Of a stretch of 64,000 nt of DNA, positions 12,684-64,000 are shown one piece after another. Made by a program: the position numbers and the translations under genes. Every line of letters begins with the position of its first letter. The stretch's first letter is position 1. This DNA is from Utricularia gibba (taxonomy: Eukaryota > Streptophyta > Magnoliopsida > Lamiales > Lentibulariaceae): contig NEEC01000029.1 of the NCBI GenBank assembly GCA_002189035.1, positions 248,001-312,000 of the forward strand. Reading direction: 5' to 3'. The notes below the pieces were generated by a model. That model had not been told where the DNA came from. It searched no databases and saw nothing but the letters and a program-made list of their open reading frames with translations.

Positions 12684-15600
12684 ATGGCATCTGGGAGCTG
12701 GAATTCTGTAGAACAGGGTAATGGTTCCAAGGGAGGTATGTGGGTTCTTGAACAAAAGCTTGATCAACCTTTGGAAGAAGAAGCTGGAAAACTTACCAAT
12801 ATGTACAGAGAGAAGGTACAAAAAAATGAATCTTTATTTCCTTGATTCCATGCTTGTCGACTGTAACAGTAGTAGTTTAAGTTCATCAGTGAATTGCCAA
12901 TCCTGAAGACTTAGATTCTCCTTATCTTCATATCGTTCTTCACTTGGCTGATGGAAAATTTGATGGCTTGAGTAGGGGAGTGGGTAGCCTTCCTTCAACT
13001 GTCTTCTGGTTTTTTATCTTCTGTATAACATGTGCGTTTGCTGCTTTATTCTCACACTTGATATGATGCATTCTTTAAATACTAGAATCCATACTCCTTT
13101 GAAAAGATTGTTATTAGAGCAAAAGCCTAATATGTTTATGTTGCTACACAATGGCTGCTGCATAGTTCAGGATTCAACTAATATGTTTCACTCCTATGAT
13201 GATGCAGAAAATTTCTGCATTTTTTCTCTTGCGGCTTGCATTCCAGAGCCTCGGAATTGTATATGGGACCTTGGGACATCTCCATTATACGTGTTCTACA
13301 ACACTTTTCCTCAGGGAATTGACAATACTGAGGATATTATCGGAGCCCTTTCATTGATCCTATATTCCTTGACACTGATACCTCTACTCAAGTATGTCTT
13401 CATTGTCTGCAGAGCAAATGATAATAGCCAAGGTTTGGTCTCCTTCCCACTGATGACACCTCTCTTTCTTCAATGGCTTGTGTGACAATTCCTATCTTCT
13501 TTCTATCTCGAAGGAGGAACTCTTGCACTCTACTCACTGCTTTGTCGGCACGCTAAACTGAAAACAATCCCAAACCAACACCGGACTGATGAGGAGCTGA
13601 CTACCTACAGCCGTAGCACCTTCAGTGAGAACTCATTTGCAGCTAAAACGAAGAGATGGCTGGAGGCTGATTCTTTCAAAAGGAATGCTCTTCTCGTACT
13701 GGTTCTTGTAGGAACTTGCATGGTAATCGGTGATGGAATCCTCACTCCTGCAATTTCTGGTACTTTCCTTCCTATAATTAGTGTCTGTTTTGATGTCCAT
13801 TGCCCTGGCTAACTGCAAAATAATGTGAACAGTTCTTTCTGCTTCTGGAGGGATCAAAGTTGATCACCCAAAGATGTCTAGTGGTATGACACCTGATTTT
13901 GCAGTACATGTGGTTTCTGATTCTCCCTTATGATCATCGATGCATCTGCATTCAGGGGTCGTTACGATTGTAGCTGTTATCATACTTGTGGGGCTGTTCA
14001 GCATGCAGCACTACGGCACTGATAGGGTTGGCTGGCTTTTTGCTCCCATTGTGCTGCTGTGGTTTCTTGTCATCGGAGGCATTGGCATTTTCAACTTATA
14101 CAAGTATGATAGCTCGGTTCTGAAAGCATTTTACCCTCTCTACATTTATCGATACTTTCGGCGGACGAAGAAAAAAGGGTGGATATCTCTTGGTGGGATC
14201 ATGCTATGCATCACAGGTCTGAAGCCTATCTCCATTCTCCTCTTGTGGGTTATGCCTGTTTGTTGGTGTTTTCAAGTTCTGTCCAACTGTGCCAGGAACG
14301 GAAGCCCTGTTTGCTGATCTTGCCCATTTCCCAGTTCTGGCGATACAGCTCGCGTTTACCGTCATCGTGTTTCCTTGTCTCCTTCTAGCTTACTGCGGGC
14401 AAGCAGCTTACCTGATGGATCACAAAGAGCATGTCTACGATTGCTTCTATCGCTCCATTCCTGGTATGGTTCGGCTTGATCATCCCCCTTGATTCTCTGG
14501 GATGCCTTCACCTCCTCCATGTTTCTGCTTTCATTCCATGTAATGTGATGATGACTCTCGAACCATGTTTGCAGAAAGTATCTACTGGCCAGTCTTCTCG
14601 CTAGCAACCCTGGCTGCCATTGTTGCTAGTCAAGCTACCATATCTGCAACATTCTCGATAATCAAGCAGGCTCATGCGCTCGGCTGCTTCCCCAGAGTCA
14701 AGGTTGTGCATACCTCAAAAAGGTTCCTGGGCCAGATCTATATCCCTGATGTGAACTGGATCCTAATGGTTCTCTGTATTGCCGTCACCGCTGGATTCGG
14801 GAACCAGAGCCAGATCGGCAATGCTTACGGTACGGCCGTCGGTGTCGTCATGCTGGTTACAACGGTTATCATGACCTTGGTGATGCTTCTGGTTTGGCAC
14901 TGTCACTGGATGATAGTCCTCATCTTCACCTCCTTGTCGTTGCTCGTTGAATGCACCTATTTCTCAGCACTGCTCTTCAAAATCGACCAAGGAGGATGGG
15001 TGCCGCTCGTCATCGCTGCCGTGTTTCTCCTCATCATGTATACCTGGCATTACGGCACACTCAAGAGGTATGAGTTTGAGATACACAGCAAGGTTTCCCT
15101 GGCCTGGATTCTAGGGCTTGGACCGAGCCTCGGCCTGGTGCGTGTGCCCGGGATCGGACTTGTGTACACGGAGCTTGCCAGCGGGGTGCCTCGTATCTTT
15201 TCCCACTTCATTACAAACTTGCCGGCGGTGCACTCCGTCGTGATCTTTGTCTGCGTCAAGTACCTGCCGGTGTACACAGTCCCTGAAGACGAACGGTTTC
15301 TGGTTAAACGTATAGGACCCAAGAATTACCACATGTTCCGGTGCGTTGCGAGGTATGGCTACAAGGATCTCCACAAGAAGGATGAGGACTTCGAGCAGAA
15401 GCTGTTTGAGCACCTGTTCAAGTTCGTCCGCCTGGAGTCGATGATGGAAGGATGCTCTGACTCCGAGGAATACAGTGTGTACAGCAGCCATAAAACAAGG
15501 CGTTCGAGAGACTTCCAGATGAGAGACATCCCACAGACATCTACTGCAAATACAGATACCCTTTCACCAGGAGACTCGATTGTCCCGGCGGGATCACCCC

Positions 15601-15875
15601 TTCGTGCGCAGACCACCGGCACCTCCTCTGGGAATGACAGTGGGCACACGGAAGGTAGTGATGAGTTGGAGTTCTTGAGCCGTTGCAGGGACACCGGGGT
15701 TGTTCATATTCTAGGAAACACCCTGGTGAGAGCACGGCGCGAGTCTTGGATCGTGAAGAAGATAGCTATAGATTATATTTATGCGTTTCTTAGGAAGATG
15801 TGCAGGGAGAATAGTGTTATATTCAACGTGCCTCATGAGAGCCTACTGAATGTTGGCCAAATCTTCTATGTATAG
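12684..15875 (+). CDS. KUP/HAK/KT potassium transporter A (POT9/10/11-like), one-base frameshift
   Basis: Seven exons: 12684-12815, 13208-13432, 13514-13759, 13833-13883, 13956-14216, 14296-14463 and 14575-15875. The N-terminus [19 protein letters not shown] and the C-terminus [16 protein letters not shown] place it with Arabidopsis POT9-11. KUP proteins move K+ with protons across plasma or vacuolar membranes through about 12 spans. Conserved blocks include [46 protein letters not shown] and [20 protein letters not shown]. The summed exons are one base short of a multiple of three. The missing base is in GGG at 13265-13267, inside the family signature [11 protein letters not shown], where GGGG is needed. 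With it the protein would be 794 residues and complete. Either a consensus error or a very young pseudogene. Confidence 0.88.
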
Positions 15876-16056
15876 AACCATGAGTTTGAACTGCTGTTCC
15901 TTAATAAACAGTCTCAAATGCTCAGCAGCTTTTGGGCCATTTTTTCTGTACCCACGCAGAAACAGAAAACAGGGCAGAAAGAACCACATTTTCTGGGAAT
16001 AGTTAGGATAAGCTCAAAAGCAACGATAACAGACCATGAAAAACGAGCTCAAAAAG

Positions 16057-16543
16057 CTAATCCTTGATAACAATGGCACCAACAGCTTTCATTTTCTGTA
16101 GTATTTTTTCTGCATCTTCCTTCGGCATCCCTGTCTTGAGAACTGCAGGCAACTTCTCAACCAAGTCCTTGGCTTGTCAGGTCGGCTGCAGTTGCTGCCG
16201 TTTTCTGTCCCAATCCTGCTGCTCCAGCAGCACCTGGCTTCAGAACTCCTACAAGCAGGGCCTCCTTCATGCCCAATTTTTGGCATCATAATCGAGGATA
16301 TTTCCCCTGCTTCAACAAGAATTAGTCGGAGATTCCATCAACAAGTTTCCAAACCCTCTCACTCGGAGGATTGGTATGCTCTGTTGGATCAACATTTGCA
16401 GGATGATAATTGGTTGGGAGCCTTCTCTGGTCTATATCCACTAGCTCTTCATGCTCTACATCCCCCACTCTCGCAGGCTGAGCAAAGTTCCTTGTTACAC
16501 CAGTGGACATTCCAGGTAAACGCCAGTGATCACCAGAGAACAT
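16057..16543 (-). pseudogene. Mitochondrial ribosomal protein bL12m (L7/L12) gene, disrupted
   Basis: The minus strand encodes a recognisable mitochondrial L7/L12: DIDQRRLPTNYHPANVDPTE and ERVWKLVDGIS from 16543, then LILVEAGEISSIMMPKIG, then VGVLKPGAAGAAGLGQK, then AKDLVEKLPAVLKTGMPKED to a stop at 16057. The parts lie in different frames, with shifts near 16325-16328 and 16271-16273. About 40 codons that form most of the globular C-terminal domain (normally KTxFDVKLE to DLGLKEA) are absent at a junction near 16175. bL12 binds translation factors, so the product could not work as usual. A leader exon, an intron (16649-16789) and a ribosomal-protein-type promoter remain upstream, so this is a decayed resident locus, not a processed copy. 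Confidence 0.75.
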
Positions 16544-17229
16544 AACGATTTCTTAAGTACTCGAATGATAAAAAAATCATCTTCAGCACCCAAACGGAAC
16601 CTTTCCGATATAAAGTAATCAACAATGTCTACCATTTCTACCTGAATCCTGCAAATCAATCAGGACGAGGAGGATGATTGGCATTTCCAAAAGATGAACC
16701 CTTTCAGGAAGTAGAAGAACTCAATCATCATACATAATGCAGTAACCAAAAAAATTACCCACTAAAACGGCGGAACAAGGGCAGCGTACCTGCGGAACCC
16801 ACCGACGGCGACAACAACAGGCTCTCGAGGAAGAGAAGATGGGAGGAGAAACAAATGAAGAAGATTTGATAATGGGCCATACAATGAAGTCTACGGCCCA
16901 AACCCTATTGTGGAATGGGTCACATTATCGACTGTGGGCCCATCAACTATTCTCAAACTATGTTTCTCATGCATGGTGACAGTGATGGCATCATCTCAGG
17001 AAAGGGTAATTGTGTAATTTCATACTGACATGGGGCCCGGGAATCTGATGGGATCCGGGTGCAAGCAGACACGGGATAAGTGTATTTAGACACCATCGAA
17101 TTGAAAACTAGCGGCTGTCGCTTGCCTCTGTAGGTGGCGCTTGTGCTTTGCAGGCGACGTAGTTCCGTGCATCAATTGATTCCTCCTCTCCTGTCGTCGT
17201 CTTTGCGGAGCCGCCGTCACGGCGCCGTC
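16544..17229. promoter_or_regulatory. Bidirectional promoter region with site II and telo-box elements
   Basis: TGGGCC at 16873-16878 and 16935-16940, GGCCCA at 16895-16900 and AAACCCTA (telo box) at 16900-16907 cluster between the minus-strand bL12m locus and the plus-strand allantoate deiminase. Site II next to a telo box is the hallmark of plant ribosomal-protein promoters. On the minus strand a leader exon ends at 16790 (CGCAG|GTACGC) and the intron closes at 16649, as in live genes. Confidence 0.6.
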
Positions 17230-19709: not shown

Positions 19710-19838
19710 CGATTTGTGATACATGGAGTATGAATAAACCTGTATATCCATTTCTCAGCATTCTTCCTCTAGTGGAGTGCCCTTGCTTTACGAAAAAAGA
19801 AAAAACATATATTATTTTTTAGAAAATAAATGCTATAT

Positions 19839-19862
19839 TGGGCTTTATTATGTAAGTGGGCC
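19839..19862 (+). promoter_or_regulatory. Site II pair upstream of SF3A1
   Basis: TGGGCT at 19839-19844 and TGGGCC at 19857-19862 lie about 120 bases before the SF3A1 ATG. A TAGGGTTT telo-like motif follows in the leader near 19950. This is the usual arrangement for plant housekeeping RNA-processing genes. Confidence 0.45.
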
Positions 19863-19980
19863 TTTAGTGATTTTTGGGGTCATCGGAGGTACCGTTTTTT
19901 CTGAAACATTTTCCTTCCGAATTTCCGATCTTGGTGCTCTCGCAGACTAGGGTTTCGAGAGTTTGGGCATGTTGTAGAAG

Positions 19981-26319: not shown

Positions 26320-27608
26320 ATGATGCTCTTCCCATGGAGGCGTAACAGAGGCGGAGGAAGAAGGCGAGATTTTGGGTCGAAAGGGGGAATGGAGATCACC
26401 ATTCCGCAGCATTTCATTTGCCCAATAACCCTAGATTTGATGCGGGATCCGGTGACGCTGTGTACGGGTGTAACCTACGATCGCGAGAGTATTGAGAGAT
26501 GGATTGAGTCTGGGAACGTGAATTGTCCGGTTACGAATCAGGTTGCCACGAATTCGTATCCGATTCCGAACCATGTTATACGAAAGATGATTCAGAATTG
26601 GTGCGTTGAGAATAAGTCTCACGGATTTGAGAGGATTCCAACGCCGCGGGTTCCGGTTACGCCCCATGAAATCTCTGAGGTTCGATTGAAAATGGCGGCG
26701 GCTGCGCAAGATGGGGATGGCAGGAAACTTGGGGAACTGGTTTTAAAGGTGAGGAATTGGGGAATGGAAAGTGAAAGGAACAAAAGGTGCATTCTTGGAA
26801 ATGGGGTAGGTTCTGTCCTAGCATATTCGTTCAATTCTTTCGCTGGCGTTTCTGGAATGCGGATTTGGGTCTTTTGAAAGAGATACTCTCTTTATTGACA
26901 TGGCCTTTTTCATTTAGTTCAAAAGATGTTTCGCATTTGAAGTCTTCAGTTTCTCTGGGATTCATTGCTGGGTTTCTGAAGGAAGATGATCTATCAGCAA
27001 AACAGAACGCCATTTGTTTACTTAAGCATCTGGTTTCTGTGGATGATAAAATCCTCTTGGAAATCGAAGGTATTGAAGAAACGTTAGTCAACATCCTCAA
27101 GCTCCCAATTTCCTCCCAGTCCACCATTAATAGCCTCGTAATCATCCACCACATCCTATCATCATCTTCTTCTCAAAAGACTGCTACTGCTTTCATCGAA
27201 TCTGGACTGATTGCCTCGCTCCTCGAGATTCTAGTCGATGGAGACACACTCGTCTGCGATAAGGGTCTATCGATTTTGGATAAGATCCTCAGCTGGGAAG
27301 AAGGAAAAGCAAGTGTTTGTCAAAATGAGTTGGCGGTTCCGTTGCTCGTGAAGAAGATTTCCCGCGTGTCAGACGCGGCAACGGAGATGTGCGTGTCGTG
27401 TATTTGGAAGATGAGCTCGGTGGATGATGTTCTGGATGAAGCCGTGAGGCTTGGGCTGTTCCAGAAGCTGCTGGTGGTGCTGCAGATTGGTTGCGATGAA
27501 AGAACCAAGGAGAAGTCGAAGGAACTGCTGAAAACCATGAATTTGTTGTATGGAGACGATCTTGATTGCTTTGAACCGTCCATGGCGTTACAGTATGTGA
27601 AAAGGTGA
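26320..27608 (+). CDS. U-box E3 ubiquitin ligase, PUB20/21-like, one-base frameshift
   Basis: An intronless gene of about 430 codons. The U-box is at about residues 24-95: MEITIPQHFICPITLDLMRD, then TLCTGVTYDRESIERWI and CPVTNQV. The inter-domain block ERIPTPRVPVTPHEISEVRL is typical of PUB20/21. An ARM-like helical repeat region follows to the stop at 27606. U-box ligases take ubiquitin from an E2 to a target protein; PUB20-22 types act in stress and immune signalling. The frame breaks at 26855-26859: TCT GGA ATG should read TCT GGA AAT GCG, so one A of AAA is missing. Both halves match the family with no residues lost, so an assembly error is likelier than decay. Confidence 0.87.
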
Positions 27609-30891: not shown

Positions 30892-32318
30892 ATGGCGCTT
30901 CCGAAGGGGAACTGGGTTAAGGTAAATGTTCAATCCCCTTCAGATTTAACTCTTCTATGCTTTGATTGCAAGATTTGGGGCTTTCCTATGCTGGGTTCCT
31001 TCAAAAACTGGATCTTTGTGTTTCTTCTGCTTCGTCGTGAGTTGGGTTTTTGTTCAGAATCTGAGTAAATATTGAATTGGTATCTTGATAAGGAAAAAGT
31101 GCGTGTTCGATCGGTTGATTCATGATTGCCTTAGGATTTGCTTCGCAATGCTTATTTTATATCGCTTGTTGCATCTCTTCCTACAAGCAGACTCGTCCTT
31201 GTTGCATGAATGTAGATTTTTCGTGAATAAGACTTTAAAAAGTGATTTTGTATAAAACTGCGTTATCAGCGCAATGTAATTCATGCTATAATCTATAAGA
31301 AAGATGCAGATTTGGCACATACTATCTGCTCTCGCTGAATTCTTCGTATTGATCGAATGTTTGGTGGCTATTGGTATCTAAATACGCAGCTGGAACAAAG
31401 AGGGACTGGCCCTGGAGCTCGAAGTTCACATGCTATAGCAGTTGTGGCAGACAAGGTTTATGCATTTGGTGGGGAGTTCAATCCCAGGATCCCTGTGGAT
31501 AACCATCTCTATGTCTTCGATCTCGCCGATCAAACATGGCGCATCGCCGATGCTAAAGGGGATATTCCTCCACCTCGTGTTGGAGTATCCATGGCATCTG
31601 TTGGGAGACTCTCTACGTTTTCGGAGGGAGAGATCGAGATCACAAGGAGTTGGGCCAACTCTATAGTTACAACACTTCAACTGATACATGGACCCTCCTC
31701 CCCTCCGGTCCACCTCCTCGAAGCTACCACTCGACGGCGTCTGATGATCGACGGGTATATGTCTTTGGAGGGTGTGGAGATGCAGGAAGGCTAAAAGATC
31801 TTTGGGCTTTTGATGCCCTCGACGGAAAGTGGATCGAGTTCCCATTACCGGGTGAGGGGTGTAAGCCAAGAGGCGGACCAGGGCTGGCTGCAGTGCTCGG
31901 CAAAATCTGGGTTGTGTACGGCTTCTCCGGCGTGGAGCTTGATGATGTCCATTGCTTTGATCCCAGTGAAGGAAAATGGGTCGAGGTCACAACAAGTGGC
32001 GAGAAGCCGACTCCTCGAAGCGTATTCTCGACTTTCGGATCGGACGAATACATCTTCGCATACGGCGGAGAGGTTGATCCAAGTGACTTGGGCCATCTGG
32101 GAGCAGGAAAGTTTGCGCAGGAGGTCTACGCACTCAACACTAAAACGCTTGTGTGGACAAGGTGGGATGACGGCGCCGGCGAGCATCCAGGGCCACGAGG
32201 ATGGTGTGCATTCTCCGGCTGCCAGCACAGCGGCAAATGGGGGCTACTGGTCTACGGTGGGAACTCGCCCTCCAATGATAGGCTTGAAGACCTGTTCTTC
32301 TTCAGCCCGGGTAACTGA
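30892..32318 (+). CDS. Kelch-repeat protein, nitrile-specifier-like, one-base frameshift
   Basis: Exon 1 (30892-30921) encodes [10 protein letters not shown]. Exon 2 (31390-32318) continues [19 protein letters not shown]. Five kelch blades follow, each with a GG pair, such as [21 protein letters not shown] and [10 protein letters not shown]. The closest family I know is the plant At3g07720/NSP group, about 320-330 residues; this model gives 319. Outside Brassicales these proteins have no known glucosinolate substrate, so the role is open. The frame breaks at 31603-31605: GTT GGG AGA should be GTT GGG GAG ACT CTC, one G short. Restoring the frame gives the expected blade YVFGGRDRD. The rest is intact, which suggests consensus error. 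Confidence 0.85.
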
Positions 32319-32755: not shown

Positions 32756-33093
32756 TCATTCTCCTCTAGCACATCTCGTGATGACCTGGCAACCGCGGTT
32801 GTAGAAATTGGCGACGCCGTGTTCCCTACAGTTGTAATACGAAGCTCCAGGGCGATCGCACGGCACCAAATCCCTGATCAGAGTATCGTAGCTGATGAAT
32901 CTCCTCCCCATTTCCAGCAGCCTCCGCCGATTGCTCTCGGGATCCGCTGTCTCTACTTCCTCCACCGCCGCCGGGGGGGCGCGGGATCGAATTTCTCGCA
33001 TTTCATGGGTAATCCTCCGATTTGGAGGAAATAAAGCAATGCGAACAAGACGGCGAAAATCGATCGCGTTTTGAGCTTAACGGCGGCGCGCAT
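32756..33093 (-). CDS. RALF (rapid alkalinization factor) peptide precursor, one-base frameshift
   Basis: An intronless minus-strand gene. From the ATG at 33093 comes a signal peptide (LKTRSIFAVLFALLYFLQI). The propeptide is acidic. A subtilase site RRLL precedes the mature peptide, which reads FISYDTLIRDLVPC, then PGASYYNC, then the last two cysteines in RGCQVITRC. The four cysteines and YYNC are RALF hallmarks. RALFs are secreted ligands of CrRLK1L receptors such as FERONIA and raise apoplastic pH. The signal peptide and the mature part are in different frames. The break is at the G run 32973-32979 (seven C on the coding strand), where eight would join them into a 112-residue precursor. In other frames either part is alone, so neither would yield a secreted peptide as written. 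Confidence 0.85.
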
Positions 33094-33652: not shown

Positions 33653-33733
33653 ATGGACGCCATTCGTCCCACTCTTGCGTTTGCATCGCCACGATATTTA
33701 TCACCCAACCTTCGTCCACCGCAGTCGCTGAGA

Positions 33734-35806
33734 ATGGATCCTGTTTCCAAGTGGGGAAACGCTCCTCTGTCCACCGTCGATCCGGAGATTCACGATCTCA
33801 TCGAGAAGGAGAAGCGCCGCCAATGGCGAGGAATCGAGCTCATTGCTTCCGAGAATTTCACTTCCTTTGCGGTTATCGAGGCTTTGGGAAGCGCCCTCAC
33901 GAACAAGTACTCCGAGGGGATGCCTGGTAATCGATACTATGGGGGAAATGAGTATATTGACGAGATCGAGAATCTCACTAGGTCACGCGCTCTTCAGGCT
34001 TACCGTTTGGATCCAACCAAATGGGGAGTCAATGTGCAGCCCTACAGTGGATCTCCGGCGAATTTCGCTGCCTACACGGCGGTGTTGAATCCCCATGATC
34101 GGATTATGGGGCTTGATTTGCCGTCCGGTGGGCATTTGACACATGGCTATTATACTTCTGGAGGGAAAAAGATCAGTGCTACTTCCATATACTTTGAGAG
34201 TTTGCCGTATAAGGTGGATTCGAAGACAGGTTACATTGATTACGATAGATTGGAGGAGAAAGCATTGGATTTCAGACCCAAGCTGATTATCTGTGGAGGC
34301 AGTGCTTATCCCAGGGATTGGGATTACAAGAGATTCAAGGAGATCGCTGATAAATGTGGAGCGCTTTTGCTCTGTGACATGGCTCACATCAGCGGGCTTG
34401 TTGCTGCTCAGGTAACCATTCATTGTTTTCGGATCTGCGTGTGGTTGGAATCAGAGATCTGGTCGTGATAATGGCTAGTATTTCATCCTTCGCGTCTTAT
34501 ATGGTGTGTGATCTGGACGTGGGTTGCATGCTGTGTGTTTTGTTGCAAAGTCGTAGTTTATGCATGACGCCGTATCGGTTCACTGTCTGACATTATCCAA
34601 GTTTCAAATTTGAATCCAAGATCCAGTATTTGATCCTGAGATATATCTTACTGTCCCATATCGGATTATGCATAAAATGCATCATCAATCGAGTGTCATT
34701 ATGTGATTGTGATACTGCGTGGTTGTAGGAAGCGGCGGACCCTTTTGAATATTGTGACTTGGTCACAACTACAACTCACAAGAGTCTGAGAGGTCCAAGG
34801 GCTGGAATGATCTTCTACAGGAAGGGTCCAAAGCCAGCAAAGAAGGGACAGCCTGAGGATGCGGTGTATGACTTTGAGGATAAAGTCAACTTTGCCGTTT
34901 TCCCCTCTCTCCAGGGTGGTCCACACAATCACCAGATTGGTGCTCTTGCTGTTGCTCTGAAACAGGCAATGACGCCTGGATTCAAGGCGTATGCGAAGCA
35001 AGTGAAAGCCAATGCTGCTGCACTTGGTAACTACCTCATGAGCAAAGGGTACCAGCTTGTAACTGGAGGAACTGAGAACCATCTTGTTCTCTGGGATCTT
35101 AGACCTCTTGGATTGACTGGTAAGATTCAATATCCTGGCTTTTTCCAATAGGGGTTTCATCTATATTTTTCCAATGTGCTCATCGGCTTTTGTTCAACTC
35201 AGGAAACAAGGTAGAGAAGCTCTGCGACTTATGCAACATAACTGTTAATAAGAACGCTGTGTTTGGTGACAGTAGCGCATTGGCCCCTGGTGGTGTTCGC
35301 ATAGGTAAGAATGACCATGCACTTACTGTCTGTTTCCTTCTCCTAATTGTATGGAAGTAGTGACCGTGAGTATTTGATTTGTATCTGCGAATGGTTTCTA
35401 GCTGCCAGAATCTGTGATTGCTTTCGTAGCATCTAGATCAACTAGTTGGAGTCATCATGCTACTATGATGGATTCGCTGCATGAAACATTTGGTTGCTTT
35501 TTGGCGTCCTGATGAGCATCTAGCTTAAACCGCACCTCTTTGTTCCTATTTGTTGTTTGCAGGTGCCCCAGCCATGACATCCAGGGATTAGTGGAGCAAG
35601 ACTTTGAGCAAATTGCAGAATTCCTCCATCGTGCTGTGTCCATCACCTTGAAGATTCAGAAAGAGCATGGGAAGTTGCTGAAGGACTTCAACAAGGGTCT
35701 GGCGAACAACAAAGACATTGAGGAACTGAAGGCAGATGTGGAGAAATTCGCGTCTTCATTCGACATGCCAGGTTTCAATGTCTCCGAGATGAAGTACAAG
35801 GACTGA
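33734..35806 (+). CDS. SHM4: Serine hydroxymethyltransferase, cytosolic type, one-base frameshift
   Basis: Exons 33734-34411, 34729-35119, 35203-35304 and 35563-35806 encode about 470 residues. The start [20 protein letters not shown] is that of the cytosolic isoform. The PLP lysine is in [14 protein letters not shown]. Other blocks are [40 protein letters not shown] and [16 protein letters not shown]. The enzyme interconverts serine and glycine and feeds one-carbon folates. In the last exon ATG ACA TCC AGG GAT TAG should read AGG GGA TTA (TSRGLVE); one G is missing at 35584-35586, and the sequence as written stops there. The remaining exon is normal. An in-frame ATG at 33653 could add 27 residues rich in Arg, Pro and Ser. 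Confidence 0.93.
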
Positions 35807-38137: not shown

Positions 38138-39486
38138 ATGCAATACCACGCGATCATCGGAGGTGGGGTGTCGGCGGCGGATAGCAGCAAAACGGCGAAG
38201 CTAGAGAGGTACAATAGCTACCTGCGCCGCCTCAACACCACCAGTTTCCTCAACGCTTCCTCTAAGCTGCTCTTCCGGGTCACTCTCATCGCCACGCTCA
38301 TCCTCATCTTGTTCTTCACTCTCAACCATCCGCCGCTGTCCGGAAACGACGGCCACCACATTCACGCCACCAGTAGCCTACTCTCGTCGGCGTTCTACGG
38401 AGGCGGAGCGGCCTGGGAGAAGCAAGTGCGTCACTCGTCGACGCCACGGCGACCGGACGGGTTCTCTGTGCTAGTTACTGGCGCCGCCGGATTCGTTGGA
38501 TCCCATTGCTCACTCGCCCTGAAAAAGCGCGGCGATGGCGTTCTAGGGCTGGATAATTTCAATTCCTACTACGATCCATCGCTGAAGCGAGCGAGGCAGA
38601 ACCTGCTCAGCAGACATCAAATCTTCGTTGTCGATGGAGACATCAACGACGCGCAATTGCTCCAGAAGTTGTTCGACATCGTGCCGTTTACGCACATCCT
38701 GCATCTCGCCGCGCAGGCCGGAGTCCGTTACGCGATGCAGAATCCGCTGTCGTACGTGAATTCCAACATCGCCGGCTTCGTGAATCTTCTGGAAATCGCG
38801 AAAAAAGCCGATCCACAACCAGCGATTGTCTGGGCTTCTTCGAGCTCCGTCTACGGATTAAACACACAGGTGCCTTTCTCGGAGCTCCACCGCACAGATC
38901 AACCGGCGAGTCTGTACGCCGCCACGAAAAAGGCGGGCGAGGAAATCGCCCACACCTACAACCACATCTACGGCTTATCCCTGACCGGGCTCCGTTTCTT
39001 CACCGTGTACGGACCTTGGGGGAGGCCGGACATGGCGTATTTCTTCTTCACAAAGGACATCCTTCAGGGGAAAGGGATCAACGTGTACGTGACGCAGGAC
39101 GACACCGAGGTGGCGCGTGACTTCACCTACATCGACGACGTGGTAAAAGGCTGCATCGGCGCCCTGGACACCGCCGAGAAGAGCACCGGCAGCGGCGGAA
39201 AGAAGACCGCGCCGGCGCAGCTCCGCGTCTACAACCTCGGGAACACCTCCCCGTGTCTGTGGGGAAACTCGTGGGTATCCTGGAGAGCCTCCTGAACGTG
39301 AAGGCGAAGAAGCGCGTGATCAAAATGCCCCGAAACGGCGACGTTCCCTTCACCCACGCCAACGTCACCCTGGCGCAGAAGGAGCTCGGCTACAAGCCGA
39401 CCACGGATCTGGCTTCAGGACTACGGAAATTCGTCAAGTGGTACGTTGGGTATTACGGGGTGGAAACGAGGGCAAAAAAGGAATAA
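38138..39486 (+). CDS. GAE: UDP-glucuronate 4-epimerase (GAE), Golgi, one-base frameshift
   Basis: An intronless gene of about 449 residues, as in the plant GAE family. A basic cytosolic head precedes a signal anchor at about 44-62 (LLFRVTLIATLILILFFTL). The NAD Rossmann motif TGAAGFVGSH is at 114-123. The catalytic SSSSVYG and YAATKKAGEE follow. The GAE block HLAAQAGVRYAMQNPLSYV is intact. The enzyme turns UDP-glucuronic into UDP-galacturonic acid for pectin in the Golgi lumen. The frame breaks at 39251-39254: TCC CCG TGT should be CCG GTG TCT (SPVSVGKLVGILE), one G short. The C-terminal part to AKKE is otherwise normal. The start ATG at 38138 is the first after an in-frame stop-free region with no earlier ATG. 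Confidence 0.92.
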
Positions 39487-46772: not shown

Positions 46773-47531
46773 ATAATCTCAAGTAAACTTGTGGCTGATT
46801 TATCATCATATTATTTTCAAATGTTTGACATAATTTAGCTCCTCCTCGTCTTGATACACCCTAGATGCCATAGATTTTGCAGTCACAGGCGTCCCTTGTG
46901 CTCTTGTGGAAAGTGCTCTCTCCAGTCTCTCGTGTGATTTGTATTATTTTATTCACAAATGGCGACATAAACAGCGGGCCTGGTTGGGCCGGCTCTGTAA
47001 TTTGGATGCTTGAGAAGCGGGCCTTTTGGGCCGGCCCCAATTAATGCAAGAGTATGTGTGGACGAAAGAGTCTTGGGGAGGGAGCATTTTTAAAGGATTA
47101 GTAATGATGATATTATTTGTATTTTAAATTTTGAAGACCATTTTTCCATTTAAAATAATTAGGCATTTTAGAGTAGCATTGAAGTTACTAGTTCACAAAG
47201 GGGGTTCCACAGTGGAAATGTGCATTCATGCAATGCACCATTTCTTTTCTAAGTATTAGGATGCAGTTAGTTCATGCACCATGTTGTGGCTGTACGGTAC
47301 CGCATTTGGCAAACCCAAAATCCTCTTCCGAATCTCAGAAATGAAAAGGGAAGCTGATGTGATGAAGGGCACGTATTAGAACATGTTCACATAGACTGTC
47401 GTAAGAAAAACCACACTCCGTAGGCAACACAAAGATACAAGCACGATATACCACCCACTTTTATTACACACAGAAGAGAAGGAGAGGAGAGCATGGATCA
47501 TGGATGGTTGTCCGTCCACCTACATTCTTCC
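46773..47531. other. Intergenic region
   Basis: About 0.75 kb between convergent genes. It holds AT-rich sequence and the trailers of the HSD-like and GRP-A genes. GGGCCGGC-type pieces near 46977-47035 are not assigned. Confidence 0.45.
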
Positions 47532-47958
47532 TTAGTCCCATCCACCGGGGTAACCGCCTCCCCACCCGCCGTACCGGGGATATCCGCCTCTCCACCCGCC
47601 GTAGCGTGGATACCCTCCCCCGTAGTAACCACCGTAACGGGGGTACCCGCCGTAGCCGTAGCGTGGATAACCTCCCCCGTAACCGCCGTACCCGGGGTAG
47701 CCGCCATATCCGCCGTACTGGGCATTCTCACGGAACTCGCCTTCAGTAGGGTTCGCGGTTTCCTTGGCTGAGCAACCATCAAAACAATGCGTTGAATAAC
47801 CAATAAAAGAAAAAACGATTTCGAGATTGCATAAAGAAAGACTCACATGCATCCAAAGTGTTGGAGGTCTCCGCGAGATCTCTAGCAGCGGCCTCGGAGG
47901 AGACCAGGAGGAGCACGGCCACGAAAAGGCCGACGAAGAGAGCTAACTTGGAAGCCAT
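47532..47958 (-). CDS. Glycine-rich secreted protein A (GRP family PF07172)
   Basis: Exons 47847-47958 and 47532-47767 give 115 residues. A signal peptide (MASKLALFVGLFVAVLLLV) and the family block SSEAAARDLAETSNTLDA are coded by exon 1. Exon 2 begins KETANPTEGEFRENAQ and then has Tyr/Gly/Pro repeats of the type GGYPRYGG. Such GRPs are cell wall structural or signalling proteins. Exon 1 and the leader are almost the same as in GRP-B, in opposite orientation, so A and B are inverted duplicates with divergent transcription. Confidence 0.9.
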
Positions 47959-49387
47959 TTTGTGTTTTCACGCAGAGGAAGTTTGTGTGCTGTTCGTGTC
48001 TCACTTGGCGAGGATGAGCTCGAACCAGGGCGCCCATTTATAGGCGAGAAGGAATGATTGCACATGGGACCAGCTCTTAGTTGTTCGAGTATCCACGCAA
48101 ACCACTCATTTCTTTGAGAAGACACAGCACCAGGATAATGAAGAGAATATGAACGCGTTGACCTCAAACGCGCCAGCAGCGGTTGGCGGTGCAGCTGCAT
48201 CAAGTTAATGATGCTCGATGATTGCTTCCAGTGAGACCATGTCAACGGGCTCGCACATTCCCTTTTCTAGGGTTTCGTAGTTGGGGTTTGACCTTTTAAA
48301 CCTGCTAACAAGAATGCCTTACGGACCAAGATGAGGTTTAACCGCGATTCGGGAACAACTATTTTTACCCAATGCACATGAACTGCACGTATCTCTCTTA
48401 CACCTCTTGTCATCAATCCATACATTTAGTTCCTCGTAGGCGATTCGTATATGGCATTAGCGAGACATTTATTTCATAGGGCGTGATATTATGTCAACAG
48501 GCAACGCGCACCTACTCGCATTATTGCCTGAAGTAGGCCAGTAGTTGCCGCCAACACCCTCCTTTATTCAAGCCTTGGGGAGTTAGGGCTACATGAGCAC
48601 TCAACAAGGACAATCTTCTGCAATAAAATCAATCACTAAATATATTGTGATGAGGCAAACCCGCAGACCCTTGAGTAATTAACATTAAAAATCACGACTT
48701 GTTCTTCTGGTTTAGTATTTGTCTCACTTGTTTGACGAGGTCTTCACTGAGTAGAAAAAACAGGGAGCATTAACTGGACAGAACTGCACAATCATCAACG
48801 CATTATGTCAACATGTTGACGAAGTCAGCCGCATTTCCCTATGTCGGCCGTGTTTCGGATAACTTTCTTTTTTGGTTCAGATAACCCCTTGTCTTGGTTT
48901 CGGACCATCTGTAATTCTTACAAGTAGATCTGGTTGTGTGTTCTGTCACATACATTTTTCTGAATTGGGATGACATGAATTTTTTTTTTTTTTTTGAGGG
49001 ATGGGTTAGAGATGTCGAATTAAAACTCTTTTCTTCCTAAATCGAATAAACACACACGCAAGCTGTTGGAAATATGGTTTATTATAGGCTTGAAGCTACT
49101 GCACAACCAACTTCCGCGAAGAAGAAAGTGTCAACGCGTTCATACTTTCTTCATTATCTCGTCTCGTGTAGGTGTTTTCTCGAGGAAACGGGTGGTTTAT
49201 GTGTATACAGCATTCTGCGTGGACTTGTGAGCTGCATTTAAACCCTACCCAACGATCAACTAAGGGCTGGTCCCATGCAATAATTTCTTATCTTCTATAA
49301 ATGGGAGCCCTGGTTCAAGCTCATCCTCGCCAAGTGATACACGAGCAACATACAAGCTTCTCCTGTGTGTTCTGTTGAAAACACAAA
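47959..49387. promoter_or_regulatory. 1.4 kb bidirectional region between divergent GRP-A and GRP-B
   Basis: TATAAAT is at 48036-48042 on the minus strand (GRP-A) and at 49296-49302 on the plus strand (GRP-B), about 80-90 bases before each ATG. Both are followed by near-identical leaders (CCTGGTTC-AGCTCATCCTCG, then AAAACACAAAATGG). The centre is unique AT-rich DNA with no gene. Confidence 0.6.
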
Positions 49388-49809
49388 ATGGCTTCCAAGT
49401 TAGCCCTCTTCGTCGGCCTTTTCGTGGCCGTGCTCCTCCTAATCTCCTCCGAGGCCGCTGCCAGAGATCTCGCGGAGACCTCCAACACTTTGGATGCAAG
49501 TAAGTCTTTCTTTATTGAATCTCGAAATCGCTTTTTTCTTTTATTGGTTATTCAACGCATTGTTTTGATGCTTGCTCAGCCAAGGAAACCGCAAACCCTA
49601 CTGAAGGCGAGTTCCGTGAGAATGCCCAGTACGGCGGATATGGCGGATATGGCGGCTACCCCAGGTACGGCGGCTACCCTAGGTACGGCGGATATGGCGG
49701 CTACCCCAGGTACGGCGGTTACTACGGAGGAGGGTATCCACGCTACGGCGGGTATCCCCGGTACGGTGGTGGTGGGTGGAGACGCGGTTACCCCGGTGGA
49801 TGGGACTAA
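49388..49809 (+). CDS. Glycine-rich secreted protein B (GRP family PF07172)
   Basis: Exons 49388-49499 and 49580-49809 give 113 residues. Exon 1 encodes the same signal peptide as GRP-A, with few changes. Exon 2 opens with KETANPTEGEFRENAQ and then has GYGGYGGYPRYGG-type repeats, ending RGYPGGWD. It is the inverted twin of GRP-A. A polyadenylation-like AATAAA follows at about 49859. The frame is intact and the protein is predicted to be secreted to the wall. Confidence 0.9.
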
Positions 49810-50551
49810 GGAAGAATGTCGGTGGAAAGCCATCCATGCTCTCCTCCTATCCTGTGTGTAATAAAAGCGGGTGGTATATGGTGCTTGTATCTTTGTGTTT
49901 GTGTGTGTTGTGGGGTGTTATCGTAATCTATGTAACACATAATCATCCTGCTATGGATTCATAACCCTATCAAAAAAATGAAAAAACTTGATTTCATCAG
50001 CAACATCAACTCATCAACACTTGCAAGCCAGGGCCGACTTCTATCTAGTCTTGCCTCCAAGGGTGTGTGAAGTTACTCTCACGCCCTTGCATACATATGC
50101 AGTAGAAGCAAATTCCGCTAGATGCGTAGATGGCAGCAACTGTGGAGCTCTGTCTCAGGTTCCTGATGAACACGACAGGACAGAGGGCGTTTCTGTGATG
50201 TGGGGTTAATTTAATATTATTCTTCTGCATGGAGATCAGGGTCTGTGGTTGAATGATGAAGAAGGCGATGAGTGGACACTAAAATGCCAAAGAGTTCACA
50301 TGCTTGGCGTAGTGCCAGAAACCCTTTGGATCTGATGATGGGGATACGTAGACTTATACTGGATGGGTATGTGAGAATAATGTTGGGTTTTTATTTTTCA
50401 ACGTACACAACACAACATCAAATAACCACAACTTGAATTAAAAGCACTGCATCAAATAACTACAACTTGACACGGCGTTTGGAGATACACATGGCACCAT
50501 CATCAGCATTTATTCGATGCCATGATCCATTGGATGGTGGTATCGCATTCT
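49810..50551. other. Intergenic region between convergent GRP-B and GRP-C
   Basis: About 0.74 kb with trailers of both genes. Nothing else recognised. Confidence 0.45.
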
Positions 50552-51510: not shown

Positions 51511-51555
51511 TTTCATAGTTTTTTGTCCCGGATCTCTCAGGTCTATCGGCGGCAA

Positions 51556-56400: not shown

Positions 56401-56769
56401 CAACTTGATGGCTCTGACATCATCCCCAGCTGCAAATCCTCAACTCTACAGAGCTTGAGATTAGATCATGATGAGGACGAGAGTCCGGGGATCAGGAGGC
56501 GTCGTGTGAGATTTCAGCTACCGGAAAGTCCTGCGATGGATCCACTCGTCAGGGAAGAACTTGCAGACCTGATCCATGCCAAGGAAGCAGGCTTCGCGTA
56601 CATAATGGGGCACTCGTATGTGAAGGCTCGAAGGTCATCCTCGTTTCTGAAGAAGCTCGTCATCGACTTCGGCTACTCGTTCCTCCGTAAGAACTGCCGA
56701 GGTCCGGCGGTGGCGTTGAACATTCCCCACATCAGTCTCATTGAAGTGGGCATGATATATCATGTCTGA
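53478..56769 (+). CDS. KUP/HAK/KT potassium transporter B (KUP3/KUP4-TRH1 clade)
   Basis: Nine exons: 53478-53624, 53714-53954, 54026-54271, 54439-54489, 54565-54825, 54898-54950, 55153-55267, 55345-55599 and 55676-56769. They join without a break to 820 residues. The signature [19 protein letters not shown], then [33 protein letters not shown] and [20 protein letters not shown] are clear. The C-terminus [16 protein letters not shown] places it with the KUP3/KUP4 clade. About 12 membrane spans and a long cytosolic tail are expected. KUP4 (TRH1) types carry K+ and affect root-hair growth and auxin transport. A short exon-1 tail of 49 acidic residues is unusual for the clade. [10 protein letters not shown] replaces the usual [10 protein letters not shown]. 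Confidence 0.94.
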
Positions 56770-57158
56770 GAAAAAAATGCTGTAGAAATATTTGATGCTA
56801 GTTGCTCTTCTTCACCCCTCATGTAATGTAAACCAGTGTTGTAGTACCTTCTTTTTCAAAATGCTACTGATGAGAAGAATGAATAGAAACCAGAGACGTG
56901 AAAGAGTCACGGCTTTGGGTCTCCGTTGCTATTGCAGCAAGTGCAGCGGAGCTCGGCCGTGCCCAAACGTGACGTTTCAGGATATCGATCCGGCGTCCAG
57001 TGGGCCGGACGGCAATATCACCGCCGCGTGAAGATTTCGCACGCCGCCGTAAATTGCGAATTATATTAACTGCCTAATAGCAAGGTTGCGAAAAGTATTT
57101 AATCTTTTGTTAAATATTAATCAATTTTGATCGTTGGGTTTTGGAATTTGGATGTCAA
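56770..57158. other. Intergenic region
   Basis: About 390 bases, the KUP trailer and the PARG 5' flank. A small GC-rich patch near 56950-57030 has no assigned function. Confidence 0.45.
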
Positions 57159-59406
57159 ATGGAGGCAAGGGAAGATTTGCTGTCAATTCTGCCGCACTTG
57201 CCGCTGATTTCCCGATCCTCGGCGTTGTTCTGGCCCCCGCCGGTGGTGGCGGCTCTCAAAGATCTCTGTAAGGGCCCCGATGTTAGTAACGTCAACTCCG
57301 GTAGGCTATTCGCCGTTGCTATTGCCGACATGAGGGATCCTCTCCGATTGCCGCGTCTTCACAACTCCGTATCACTTGGTTTTTCCCTTTTCTTCGATGA
57401 GGTAAGTTTGAAATCAATCTGATCTATTCAATTGTTTTTTGGGGATAGCATGATGTGCTTCAGCGTCTGTTAATAACGATATTTGCCTCGATGAATGGAT
57501 ACTAGGGCAAATCTTACTGCAGAAGAACAACCACAAGTTCTTCTCTACTTGTTTAGTCTTGCATGATTCTTGAAATGAGAAATTAGTTCCAGTTTGGTAG
57601 GAATAGGTTTGTGCCGTAATCGCAATGAACTATTCCTGCAGCTGATGAATAGGGATAAAGCTGAAAAATGGTTTAGAGATGTGATTCCGAACCTCTCTGG
57701 TTTATTGTTGAGGTTGCCAACTTTGCTGGAGACTCACTATCAATCGACAGATGCCTCAAAAATGAAAGCCGGTCTCAGATTGTTGAATTCGCAGCAGCCT
57801 GGGCTTGTTCTCCTTAGTCAGGTACACAGATTGATACAACTGTTTTGTTTCCTCTGGAGCAGTGATTTCTCTTGAGAATCTGGTGGCTTGGATAACTCAA
57901 TTGATTCAGTACTGCCTGAACTCCATCTTCCTCCGGGAAAATGAGGCTCAAGATGGGTAGATGAATCGATAGAAAGAGCTGCTACCAATAAGAGCTGTTG
58001 TGAAGTTTGTTTGATTTTCATCCTTCTCTCAATATGTGAAAAGAAAAACATTACCATGCTTAGTTTAACTTCAGTGAAGTCAAGTTGCCAGAGTGAGGCC
58101 TGATGACCATTTCAGGAACTGATCGCTGCTCTGCTACCCTGTGCTCTCTTCTGCTTGTTTCCATCCGCTAATAGAGACGCCCTCCGTCTTCAACCTATCA
58201 ACTTTGATGGTTTATTTCGGTATGCTACTCACGATTTCCTAATACTGAGACCGAGCAGATTTACTTTTCTTGTTACTAACGATTACATTTGCCATCTATT
58301 CAGTCTTCTGTACGAGTCCTTTGATTCGATTCTGGAGCATAAAATTAAATGCATTGTTCACTATTTTGAGAAGATTTCAATGGACATGCCACGAGGCTAT
58401 GTATCATATGAGAGAAAAGTACTGCCTTGGAAGGGCAAGGAATCGGAGGTAGCTTACCCTGAAGCAGGTTTCTGGGCAACTCTACTGCATCTCTCTCGTA
58501 CATGGAGGTAATGGATGAGCAAAAAGAGTGCAAATATTTTGCGATCTTCTCTAATGTGTATGATTGTTTTTGTAGGTTATCAGTTCTGGTCTTATTGAAG
58601 ATCACCCCATGGAAGCTCTTGAAGTAGATTTCGCAAACAAGTACATTGGAGGAGGTGCTCTGGGCAGGGGCTGTGTGCAAGAAGAAATACGTTTCATGAT
58701 CAATCCAGAATTGATTGTTAGCTTGCTTTTCTTACCCGCAATGGAAGACAACGAGGCTATTGAGATCGTCGGTGCAGAGAGATTCTCAAGCTACTCTGGC
58801 TACGCCTCTTCATTCCAGTTCACTGGAGATCATTCAGACACAAAAAGCATGGACACAATGGGAAGACGCCGAACAAGGATAGTTGCAATTGATGCGCTTT
58901 GCTTCCCTGGGCAGAGACAGTACAAGGTTGAATGTCTTCTTCGTGAAACTAACAAGGCCTTCTGCGGCTTCTTGAACCACTCACTTGATAAGAAGGATCA
59001 TCACATGCCAGCTCGCCCTGATCAAGCTGAAGATGCCTCCACTTCTATGCAAGGAGAAAGTAGAGGCTTCGAAGGCAAGATCGGCATTGCGACTGGAAAC
59101 TGGGGTTGTGGTGCCTTCGGCGGGGATCCACAGGTGAAAGCTATGATTCAGTGGCTGGCGGCTTCCGAGGCGCAGAGACCATTCATCTTGTACTACACAT
59201 TTGGATTGAAGAATTTGGAGAAGCTGGGAGCAGTCGTAGAATGGATTCTAGATCACCAATGGAGTGTTGGTGATCTTTGGAACATGTTAGTGGAGTATGG
59301 GTATCAGAGATTCCAGGGACAAACGTCTGATCGTCTTTTCAAATGGCTCATTCCCTCACTTCAATTTATTTCTGATAATGAATTGTCTTCCTGTCAGGTT
59401 ATTTAG
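57159..59406 (+). CDS. PARG1: Poly(ADP-ribose) glycohydrolase (PARG), one-base frameshift
   Basis: Exons 57159-57401, 57642-57821, 58116-58219, 58304-58507 and 58576-59406 give about 520 residues (Arabidopsis PARG1 548). The start MEAREDLLSILPHLPLISRS matches. The catalytic loop is in exon 5: GGGALGRGCVQEEIRFMINP, with the QEE glutamates. VATGNWGCG-like IGIATGNWGCGAFGGDPQVK is also present. The enzyme removes poly(ADP-ribose) chains and acts in DNA repair and immunity. The frame breaks in exon 4 at 58474-58476: TTC TGG GCA should be TTC TGG GGC AAC TCT, one G short. Only then do exons 4 and 5 join in phase. A GT at 59398 suggests a further C-terminal exon could exist. Confidence 0.9.
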
Positions 59407-60686
59407 AAGAAAAATATTCATCTATCCATTGATGCTTTTTTATTTATAATTACTATAATAATATAATTAATATAAAATTTTCAATTTGGGAAAATTTGTA
59501 CCGTAGGTATCCAGTGGAATACATATAAGAATGTTGATGTGGTGTTTTCTCTAAAACCCGATCGGTGAATCTAGGGTATTCTGATCATCGACGATAGTAG
59601 TGGCGCACCGCAAGTTCATGATTGTGTCGCCGCTGGAGCAAAAGGCTGGGATCTTTTTGGAATTGGTTGGTCGAAACTTCGTTTGACATTGCAGTATGAT
59701 AGTGATAGCATCATTTTACTTCACAAAGCATCTGCAAGCTGCTTGATGATTTTTCTTCACCAAGTATTGGAATATTCGTTTTTTGTAAGTCAGAAAGTGG
59801 GAGAAGAAGGATTATGTAGATGTAAAATTTGTTTGTAATAGTATGAAGACTTCATATTTAACCTACTTACTATAGCTGAATTCTATTAGTTGAAAAAATT
59901 ACCATTAGGGAAGAACAGTTGCTTCATTAGTAGTGCATCGCAGCCTTTCCTCTCACGATTGATTTCCTCAAGCAAGCGGCTCTTCTTCGATCCTGGGCTG
60001 ATCTTCCAATGCTGTTCTGTGAACTTTATTTGATGGATCATATTTTTTAAATCTATGCGTACTACCTTCTAATAGTATCCATCTTAATACTATAGCTACT
60101 GATACCATTTCGACTCTGATATCTGGAATATTGTCTACAAACACATCATTCGAAAGTACTACAAATTTAAGGTTGACTATGAAGTGAGCCTCGGATTCTG
60201 GGTACGTTTGACTTTTCTTTTTATGTACATCACTGTACCTATTTTGCCATCAATTTGATGCCCTTAGCTTAATTTGAAGTATTTTGACCTCGACTGAGTT
60301 TCTTTTCCATTCAAAAAGTTATTCAAGCATTGTGCATATTCTAATCGCTGCTACGGGAATTCATAAGGTTGGGGATGAAGACGGGAAAGCAAAGTCCGTC
60401 CCAATGAAACTCAAGATGCAGTTCATGTTCCCAGTTCCTGAAGACGATATAAAGTCATCAGTTTTCACGTTCCGAGTGAAGAAGAGGTGGGACATATAAT
60501 CCTTCCTGTCCGCAGTCCACACCGCACAAAAACAATTAGTTGGATTTATATTGTTCCAGCAGTTCCACTGCCGTGGTTGAAGGTAACTTTGATTTTCCCA
60601 AATGCAACTTAACTTGCCACTATTAACACACCTCACATACTGGGATTGAAAGTGCCCAACATTCTCCACTTTTCTTAGTTCAGTCA
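59407..60686. other. Intergenic region with unassigned open frames
   Basis: About 1.3 kb. Plus-strand pieces near 60095-60205 (DIWNIVYKHIIRKYYKFK) and 60284-60499 (MKLKMQFMFPVPEDDIKSSV) are open but match nothing I can name and share no consistent splice phase. A decayed gene is possible. Confidence 0.3.
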
Positions 60687-62088
60687 CTAGAAGCAACTGG
60701 ATGGCTCGACAGCACCACCAGTCGTGCCTGCGGCATTAGAGCACGATGATTGAGCTGGTTCCTCATTGTAAGTCAGGTGAACGTTTTCCAATCTGATCCC
60801 CTCACATGGGCTGGTGTGGCTGCAATCAAACTTCATAGCTACTTCCGTTGCAGACGTCCCTTGGATATCTTCATACAACACATCACTGATCTTTATCCCT
60901 GATCCCTGGATGACAAACAGCACTTGCTGGGTAGTTAAAAGCGCAGGTTCGAAAAAGACAAGATAGTTACCTCTGTGGGGCAGTTGATTTCGTAAGGACA
61001 GTAGTGCTGGTCGATGATGATGGGATTCCTGACGTTGGCCATGAGCGCATGCTTGAACACAACGTCCCTAACAAACCCGGTGCTGGCCTCGCCCATGCCT
61101 TGATCCTCAACCCGTTTTCGGTGTCCCTGAATCTCACTGATTTTACCACCACGTTCTGCACTCCTTCCTCGTAAAACTCCTTGCCTAGGCTCCCAATACT
61201 GCAAGGCGTTCACATCTTTTAGAAGGAAACAACGGTGAGTTTGATGAGATTTAGGAGGGGGGAACCTGATGCCGTGACCAGGCCCGCACCCAATGTCCTC
61301 GATCCAGAGCCCCACCGTCCCGGGGCCGATGGAGATGCAGTCGTCCCCGGAGCTGATCTGGGAGTTCAAAATGACGACTTGTTTCGAGTACTGGACGTGG
61401 ATCCCATCGGTGTTGGGACTGTTCCCTGATGCGGATATCAACACTTGTTGCAGCTTGACATTCTCGCAGCCGTTGATCACAACGTGAAACATTTGGCTGT
61501 TGTACGATCTCAGTCCGATGATCTCCACGTTTCTGGAGTTCCAAACCGCTATCGTCTTCAAAACAACAACAAAAACCGTACCAAGGTTAGTGCTTTATGT
61601 ACAAGTTGGAGGATGAATTTTCCATGCAAAAATGGACTTGGAATCAGACTCACGGAGGCGCCGCCGGGGCATCTGGCGCGGGATTTCTTACAGGCCCACA
61701 AGGCGTGCCCCCGCCCATCGAAAGTCCCTCCGATTATGGAAACTCCATCGACGGCGTTAAACAGCATCCAATTCCCATCGCCACCGATCGCATAGTAATC
61801 CGCCGGCGCCACCAGGTAACCGTCGATACGGACCACCAAATCTCGATTGCTACAGGGGCCCTGAAACCGCAGCGCGTTTCTAATAAAAAATCTCCCCGGA
61901 GGAACATACATCATCCCACGGGTGCGGGAGGCGCAAGCTGCAGACCACGCGGAGAGGAAGGCGGCGCTGGAGTCCGTCTCCCCGTCCGGGATCGCCCCGA
62001 AGTCCAACACATTAGCGGAAACCGGCGCACTCCGGCGGAGGGGGAGAATGAGAATGAGGAGGAGAATGAAAGGGTTGGCAGAAGACAT
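60687..62088 (-). CDS. Polygalacturonase (GH28), secreted, one-base frameshift
   Basis: Minus-strand exons 61654-62088, 61266-61555, 60971-61198 and 60687-60905 give about 390 residues. A signal peptide (MSSANPFILLLILILPL) starts the protein. GH28 motifs follow: NSPNTDG, SSGDDCISIGPG, GCGPGHGI and NGLRIKAW, which hold the catalytic aspartates, His and RIK. The enzyme cuts pectin homogalacturonan in the wall. The frame breaks in exon 3 at 61076-61078: the coding strand has CCG GGT TTG where GGG TTT GTT is needed, one G short. Beyond it FVRDVVFKHALMANVRNPII continues normally. An upstream ATG at 62241 would add 51 residues ahead of the signal and is not favoured. Confidence 0.9.
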
Positions 62089-62143
62089 GGTAGTAGTGGG
62101 CGTTGGTAACGGTGGGGGCGTGGGTGGGAGTGATCCTCGCACA

Positions 62144-62169
62144 AGTAGTAGTAGTAGTAGTAGTAGTAG
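62144..62169. repeat. (AGT)n microsatellite
   Basis: An AGT/TAG trinucleotide tract about 60-80 bases before the polygalacturonase start codon on that strand, so it lies in its leader. The rest of the 62089-62834 gap holds the two divergent 5' flanks and no further gene. Confidence 0.9.
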
Positions 62170-62834
62170 CAGTCGTCGTAATGGAGGTGGAAGTTGGACG
62201 GTTGCATGCAAATCAACACAATTGCAATTAACAACTTTCATGGCTCTTGGTCTTCGTTCTCATTAATCAAAATGCTTCCTAACCATCATGACGACTACCC
62301 CACTATTCTGCATGAAAACAAAAACAAAACAAAAAAAAAAAATAGTTAATTCATTCTCCCTCTCCTACGTGTGTAACCGTCAGGAGTCGTCTAGAACTCT
62401 TCCACCATTTACGTTCACTTTGTAGAGGGGGAGAAGGTGGACTCACCGGTGAGGCTGAGGCAGGGTTCCACTTCCACCGGTAACGGAGTCGCGGCGGCCT
62501 TTTTCTATTCCATCACGCAATTTCTTGCTGGTCTTTCTTCTTACCAGAACCTTTGTATTTTATTGAATAATTCGTGGATGGGCTTTGGGGCGTCACGACA
62601 AAATGGAATGTCGAATCCCTGTCACGTGTTTAAGAGGTAGGTGGGAACTCTCTCGCTCTCCCCTCACCTCCCCCGGTGCCGTGTTCGCACTTCGCCGATG
62701 GTATCCCGCCAATACGACAACCCAACTTGAAAAATCTCCCCCAAACCTTTGAATTTTCCCAGGAAAAGTTCAAGCCATGAGGTTTCCTATATAAATAAGT
62801 CATCCCCTGCCATGTGATGAGGAGGAAATCCTAA

Positions 62835-64000
62835 ATGGCGTCCACTCTGCTTTTGTGTTGCATCCTGACGACGTTGTTAGCTCTGGCTTCCGTCACCTCT
62901 TCCCAGATGGCCGTGTGCCCCTACGACTACGTCTACCACTTCGGCGACGGGGTTACTGACGTCGGTAACTCCGTCCGGATTCTTCCCTGGGGGCCGCATC
63001 TGCCCGCCGCGAACCCGCCGTACGGCGTGACGAATCCCGGGTATCCCACTGGTCGCTGGAGTGACGGCCTTATCGACTTCGACTTCGCCGGTAGTTCAAA
63101 ACTGCTCTGCTCATTCGTGACTTCTCTCTAGTAGCACAAGTGTTGCATCAGATTGATTTTCCCATGTGTTTCAGCGGCGGATACCGGCTACCCGACGGTG
63201 ACGCCCTACTTGTCCGGCAATACCACCGATAACCGTGCCATCATCTTCTCCGTGGCGAGAAGCCCTGTGCTTGGGCATGAATTTTTTGAGGAAAGAGGCG
63301 TTGAAGTGCCCCCTTCGCTGTGCCTGTCGAGGCTCAAGCACGTTGGTTCAGGCAATACCTCACTCAGGTCTGCTCCACTCCAGAGGGTACGTAGCGTACA
63401 TGCCACGTTTAGTTGGTGTTTGCCATCCACAGACCAAATTTCCGATCAACTGCTGGTTGGTGTTTGCAGAGTGCAGAGACAGGCTTGAGCGCTCGATCAT
63501 ATTCTTCGGCGACATCGAGGGGAACGACGTCGGCTACGCTCTGCGTCAGGGGAGGTCGATCGAGGAAGTCAGGACTTACGTACCCTTGATCATCGAAGCC
63601 CAGCTCAACATCGCCAGAGTACGTACTGCCGCCGACGTGCAGCAAAAACAAAAAAAAGTACTATGTAACTAAGTAATCATCCGTCGGATTCGCTTTGTAG
63701 GAGCTGATTCAGATGGGCGCGAAGACCTTCGTGATTCCGGGAGCTCGCTGATCGGATGCTACCCCCATCTTCTCGAAGCATTACAGAGCGATGACCCTGA
63801 AGATTACGATGAATACGGTTGCTTGAGAAGAGTGAACGAATTCATTGACTGGAAAAACGACCGTTTAAACGAATCCGTACAGCTCCTTCAAGCTGAGTTC
63901 CCGGAGACGCTTCTTCTTTACAGCCCATTTGCGTCCGGGTTCCGTGCGTATCTCCAGCAATACCTCGGTACGCCTTCCTCTCTTTCCTTCTTCTGACTGT
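62835..64000 (+). CDS. GDSL-family protein without the nucleophile Ser, 5' part, two one-base frameshifts
   Basis: Exons 62835-63090, 63175-63386, 63470-63618 and 63701-63967; the last exon(s) lie beyond the window. A signal peptide (MASTLLLCCILTTLLALASV) leads to YHFGDGVTDVGNS. In active GDSL esterases this block I is FGDS(x)xDTGN; here Gly (GGG, codon 39, 62949-62951) replaces the catalytic Ser. Other family blocks are present: FEERGVEVPP, ARWFRQYLTQVCSTPEECRD, FFGDIEGNDVGYALRQGRS and ELIQMGAKTFVIPG. The frame slips at 63309-63313 (CCCCC, six needed) and at 63739-63741 (GGG, four needed). With both repaired the exons join in phase. Family members are secreted acyl hydrolases; this copy is probably inactive. 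The catalytic Asp/His block is outside the window. Confidence 0.88.

Follow-up and report, generated by a model that had tools for sequence, protein, structure and literature searches.

One-base losses in nine conserved genes of Utricularia gibba are probably consensus errors of a long-read assembly

Genes of the window and their one-base losses

The window discussed here is a stretch of 64,000 nucleotides of the Utricularia gibba genome (C508:248001-312000), taken from an assembly of 100.09 Mb in 516 contigs. It bears nine conserved genes that are each interrupted by a change of reading frame, one of them twice. An earlier note on this DNA had claimed ten shortened runs of identical bases, each a loss, and all ten are present at the positions given below; translation around the sites gives a net −1 shift in ten out of ten, after which the conserved protein resumes in the frame expected. 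The further claims of that note, that every loss falls in a homopolymer and nearly all of them in runs of G or C, hold for the most part: six sites show a clear homopolymer and the remaining four are ambiguous (those in the SHMT, GAE and polygalacturonase genes and the first site of the GDSL lipase), and the run in the PUB gene is one of A.

The lost base is well placed in KUP-A, PUB, the kelch-repeat gene, RALF, PARG and the second site of the GDSL lipase. KUP-A, a potassium transporter gene on the + strand, is shifted in a G run (13265..13267) within a conserved protein motif of ten letters; its homeolog on contig C213 is one base longer at the break, and a K_trans Pfam match spans the joint, in agreement with the frames. 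The PUB gene (U-box/ARM protein, + strand) is shifted at an A run (26856..26857) according to its frames, with a single unbroken ARM_PUB match at residues 151-436 running over the joint. The frames likewise place the shift of the kelch-repeat protein (+ strand) in a G run (31603..31605), where the joint lies at residue 89 of a profile match covering residues 30-244. The RALF peptide precursor is encoded on the − strand, which was read separately, and shifts in a seven-base C run that appears as G on the + strand (32973..32979). Two frames here make up one precursor and support comes from the intact homeolog, a single open reading frame on C213. In PARG (+ strand), with its shift in a G run (58474..58476), PARG_cat_N lies 5′ and PARG_cat_C 3′ of the joint, such that support comes from the frames and these flanking domains rather than from a single match through the joint.

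At the four ambiguous sites the identity of the lost base as originally assigned has to be loosened. SHMT (35584..35586, + strand) breaks within APAMTSRGLVE, where the window reads AGGGA and the homeolog AGAGGA, so either a G or an A may be missing. In GAE, a UDP-glucuronate epimerase-like gene on the + strand, the shift lies around CTCCCCG (39247..39253) and the exact base is ambiguous, perhaps C or another base rather than G; the sequence is one base longer in seven paralogous loci, and a GDP_Man_Dehyd match spans the joint. The polygalacturonase (GH28, − strand) shifts at a C run or nearby (61076..61086) by its frames, the run being not unique; the joint is residue 45 of a Glyco_hydro_28 match over residues 4-89, and two paralogs are one base longer close to the break. 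The first shift of the GDSL lipase (63309..63315, + strand), also placed by its frames, has lost a C or a T. One paralog, L038, is one base longer there, and another, L040 (C412:1700 kb), has a −1 shift of its own in the same C run (complement of about 2185-2240). The second shift, defined by the frames in a G run (63739..63741, + strand), is accompanied by one more base in both L038 and L040. A Pfam match was sought on SHMT and on the two short GDSL pieces and none was found; support for these thus comes from paralogs at the DNA level.

No frameshift was found in the other Pfam-supported exons of the window that were checked (PsaF, SF3A1, zein-binding protein, glycine cleavage H and KUP-B), apparent frameshifts in PsaF and KUP-B having been rejected as introns. 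Ten losses and no gains have a probability of 0.001 under equal odds. A sample of 19.4 kb of coding sequence contains 95 runs of at least four G/C bases, which make up 2.1% of bases, compared with 156 A/T runs of that length (3.5%). Owing to this scarcity of G/C runs, random deletions would seldom land in them.

Homeologous copies and selection past the breaks

A duplicated block at about 233-342 kb of C213 aligns with the window at 67-92% DNA identity and is collinear with window positions 12139-61086, a homeologous relationship in line with whole-genome duplication. At the KUP-A, SHMT and GAE sites this block has one base more than the window. Duplicate copies provide a longer or intact form for KUP-A, SHMT, GAE, RALF and both GDSL sites. 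For three of the nine genes (KUP-A, SHMT and GAE), synonymous and non-synonymous changes were counted against the homeolog, giving dN/dS values past the break that are at or below those before it: 0.052 and 0.079 after the break in KUP-A against 0.259 in the short piece before it, 0.040 downstream in SHMT against 0.076-0.090, and 0.047 downstream in GAE against 0.049. No gene-internal stops were found in the aligned exons of these three genes. The downstream values of 0.04-0.08 imply that the protein encoded past the break is still under strong purifying selection, or was until very recently.

These data bear directly on the reading that the nine genes are recently dead pseudogenes, broken by real one-base deletions from deletion-biased mutation in a shrinking genome. 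Shrinkage of the U. gibba genome is documented, every event in the window is a deletion, and several of the genes have duplicates that would make their loss tolerable. Pseudogenes are expected to display relaxed selection and further lesions past the first break; KUP-A, SHMT and GAE display neither, and nine genes within 64 kb would all have to have died so recently that no other lesion has accumulated in the parts checked. The reading is made very unlikely by this, by the low dN/dS past the breaks, by the rarity of G/C runs as targets of random deletion, and by the appearance of the same pattern in unrelated families, with paralogs hit at the same G/C run.

The persistence of conserved downstream parts, taken alone, would also suit real frameshifts whose effect is undone by transcriptional slippage or by programmed frameshifting. 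Most runs involved are of three or four G/C bases, and runs of that length are, to our knowledge, too short for known slippage, the ground on which transcriptional slippage was rejected. Moreover, the genes hit are unrelated and their duplicates need no rescue, leaving this rescue with scarcely any credibility.

Recurrence of the losses across the genome

Gap lists taken from DNA alignments at 65-75% identity are too noisy for counts of shifts. The genome was searched with five Pfam families (GRAS, Exo70, KCS, HSP70 and GT47), and a frame change was counted where two matches abut but lie in different frames. The matches cover 144 kb of coding sequence and contain 26 such changes, 24 of them net −1 and two net +1. 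Both of the latter display an excess of −2, and the DNA of the one on C244 contains two separate short spots, a pattern that fits double losses. The genome sample yields a lower bound of about one loss per 6 kb of coding sequence, roughly a third of the rate in the window (10 in 19.4 kb, or about one per 2 kb of coding sequence). The higher rate in the window may reflect the way in which the window was noticed, reduced coverage, or shifts close to domain ends that went uncounted.

Where the DNA was inspected, most of the GRAS and Exo70 breaks coincide with short G/C runs. About 12 of some 40 GRAS genes are split by such shifts, and in four GRAS paralogs the break lies at one and the same motif, GGPP (L071 at C375:1928 kb, L072 at C142:1759.7 kb, L075 at C1:4158.4 kb and L070 at C244:1855.1 kb). 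This conserved, G/C-rich motif is apparently a repeat victim of consensus error, as judged from the recurrence of its break among paralogs. One further GRAS candidate, at C4:1155 kb, was rejected as a real intron.

Near-identical contigs

The 38-kb contig C316 shares 99.6% identity with C412:846-857 kb over 11 kb, beyond which identity falls to 92% or less, so that C316 may represent a recent duplicate or allele and not a second assembly of one locus; an alternative assembly is the other candidate. The 11-kb alignment contains 12 substitutions and 16 gaps, and of these gaps 15 lie in C316 and one in C412, some of them in A/T-rich non-coding tracts. Between real alleles or duplicates, losses would be expected in both sequences, and the one-sided gaps point to bases missing from C316.

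A second pair comprises two HSP70 copies (L087 at C241:16598-18511 and L088 at C304:2235549-2237462) that are identical over about 2.5 kb, share a −1 shift and diverge beyond this length, so that the pair yields no error spectrum. The common shift could stem from a systematic error or from shared reads, and a real mutation would account for it as well. The two copies are possibly part of a tandem array or a misassembly.

The presence of near-identical copies in the assembly lends some substance to a variant of the artefact in which a single consensus was built from two haplotypes or from two near-identical copies; such merging is known to cause indel errors when PacBio assemblies are unphased (PMC5632298). 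A near-identical second copy of the window from 24 to 64 kb was sought and not found, and merging does not predict a bias toward G/C runs; this variant is accordingly judged unlikely, with a small but appreciable chance of being correct.

Long-read consensus error and its precedents

The explanation favored here, to which a probability of about 0.93 is assigned on comparison of sequences, is that the ten shifts arose as errors in the consensus of an assembly made from long reads only and are not the marks of dead genes. Short runs, for the most part of G or C, would come out one base too short in the consensus, irrespective of gene and throughout the genome, and wherever the missing base falls in coding sequence, a net −1 frameshift would arise in an otherwise intact gene; the true molecules would then carry the longer runs. 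Such an artefact is expected to produce overwhelmingly one-base losses, located at homopolymers, in any gene and in non-coding DNA alike. Losses do indeed dominate in both the window and the genome sample; homopolymers are involved clearly at six window sites, ambiguously at four, and in most of the GRAS and Exo70 breaks; and the shifts extend to five families and, with the caution that C316 is possibly a duplicate, to the non-coding gaps between C316 and C412. The preference for consensus error over gene death expressed in the earlier note is thereby supported by the genome-wide −1 bias, recurrence among paralogs, one-sided contig gaps and purifying selection.

The PacBio genome of U. gibba was assembled by HGAP at 88x with a contig N50 of 3.4 Mb, and Quiver polishing is part of HGAP (review PMC5793159). 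The assembly studied here appears to be this genome, and its polishing probably relied on the same long reads, through Quiver, and not on accurate short reads. The original wording, a consensus error in data "without polishing", is therefore retained as regards consensus error and corrected as regards polishing (PMC5793159), for which "without short-read polishing" is the better phrase.

The artefact is of a kind already known, and its biological novelty is low. The Quiver-polished genome of Enterococcus faecium ATCC 700221 retained 561 single-base homopolymer deletions (PMC4888979), a bacterial case verified by reads, whereas the errors in the U. gibba window are deduced by comparison. An HGAP assembly of Plasmodium falciparum contained 25,352 indels before short-read correction with iCORN2 (PMC5964635), and resembles the present case in that its consensus, from long reads alone, carried thousands of indels and good genes seemed frameshifted; its errors, however, fell mostly in long homopolymer tracts (>14 bases) and TA repeats, in contrast to the short and mostly G/C runs of the window. 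False frameshifts at runs of nine G bases remained in Xanthomonas oryzae after Quiver (PMC4853030), again at G runs, but of a length more than that of the window, where most are of about four bases. In T. brucei, more than 500 protein-coding genes were corrected (PMC8445201).

That the cited failures of Quiver mostly concern longer runs is a counterpoint to long-read consensus error at runs of about four bases. Were the shorter runs real, G/C runs throughout the genome would have to have lost single bases in a very recent burst, with intact duplicates or correction at the RNA level keeping the genes alive, a combination that is highly improbable.

Consequences for annotation

The warning that nine good genes would be mis-annotated if left uncorrected is upheld as an annotation risk, and one that concerns many genes, which may be recorded as broken, split or lost. 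Because the same break recurs genome-wide, the gene list of this assembly is not to be trusted without correction. The small genome of U. gibba figures in arguments about gene loss, and counts of pseudogenes or lost genes drawn from the assembly could be inflated.

Other features of the window

Two small reading frames, at 47501-47842 (− strand) and 49379-49858 (+ strand), resemble each other and lie in inverted orientation; they possibly constitute an inverted gene pair. An RNase H-like (RVT_3) fragment is located at 7546-7998 on the − strand (E 1e-7).
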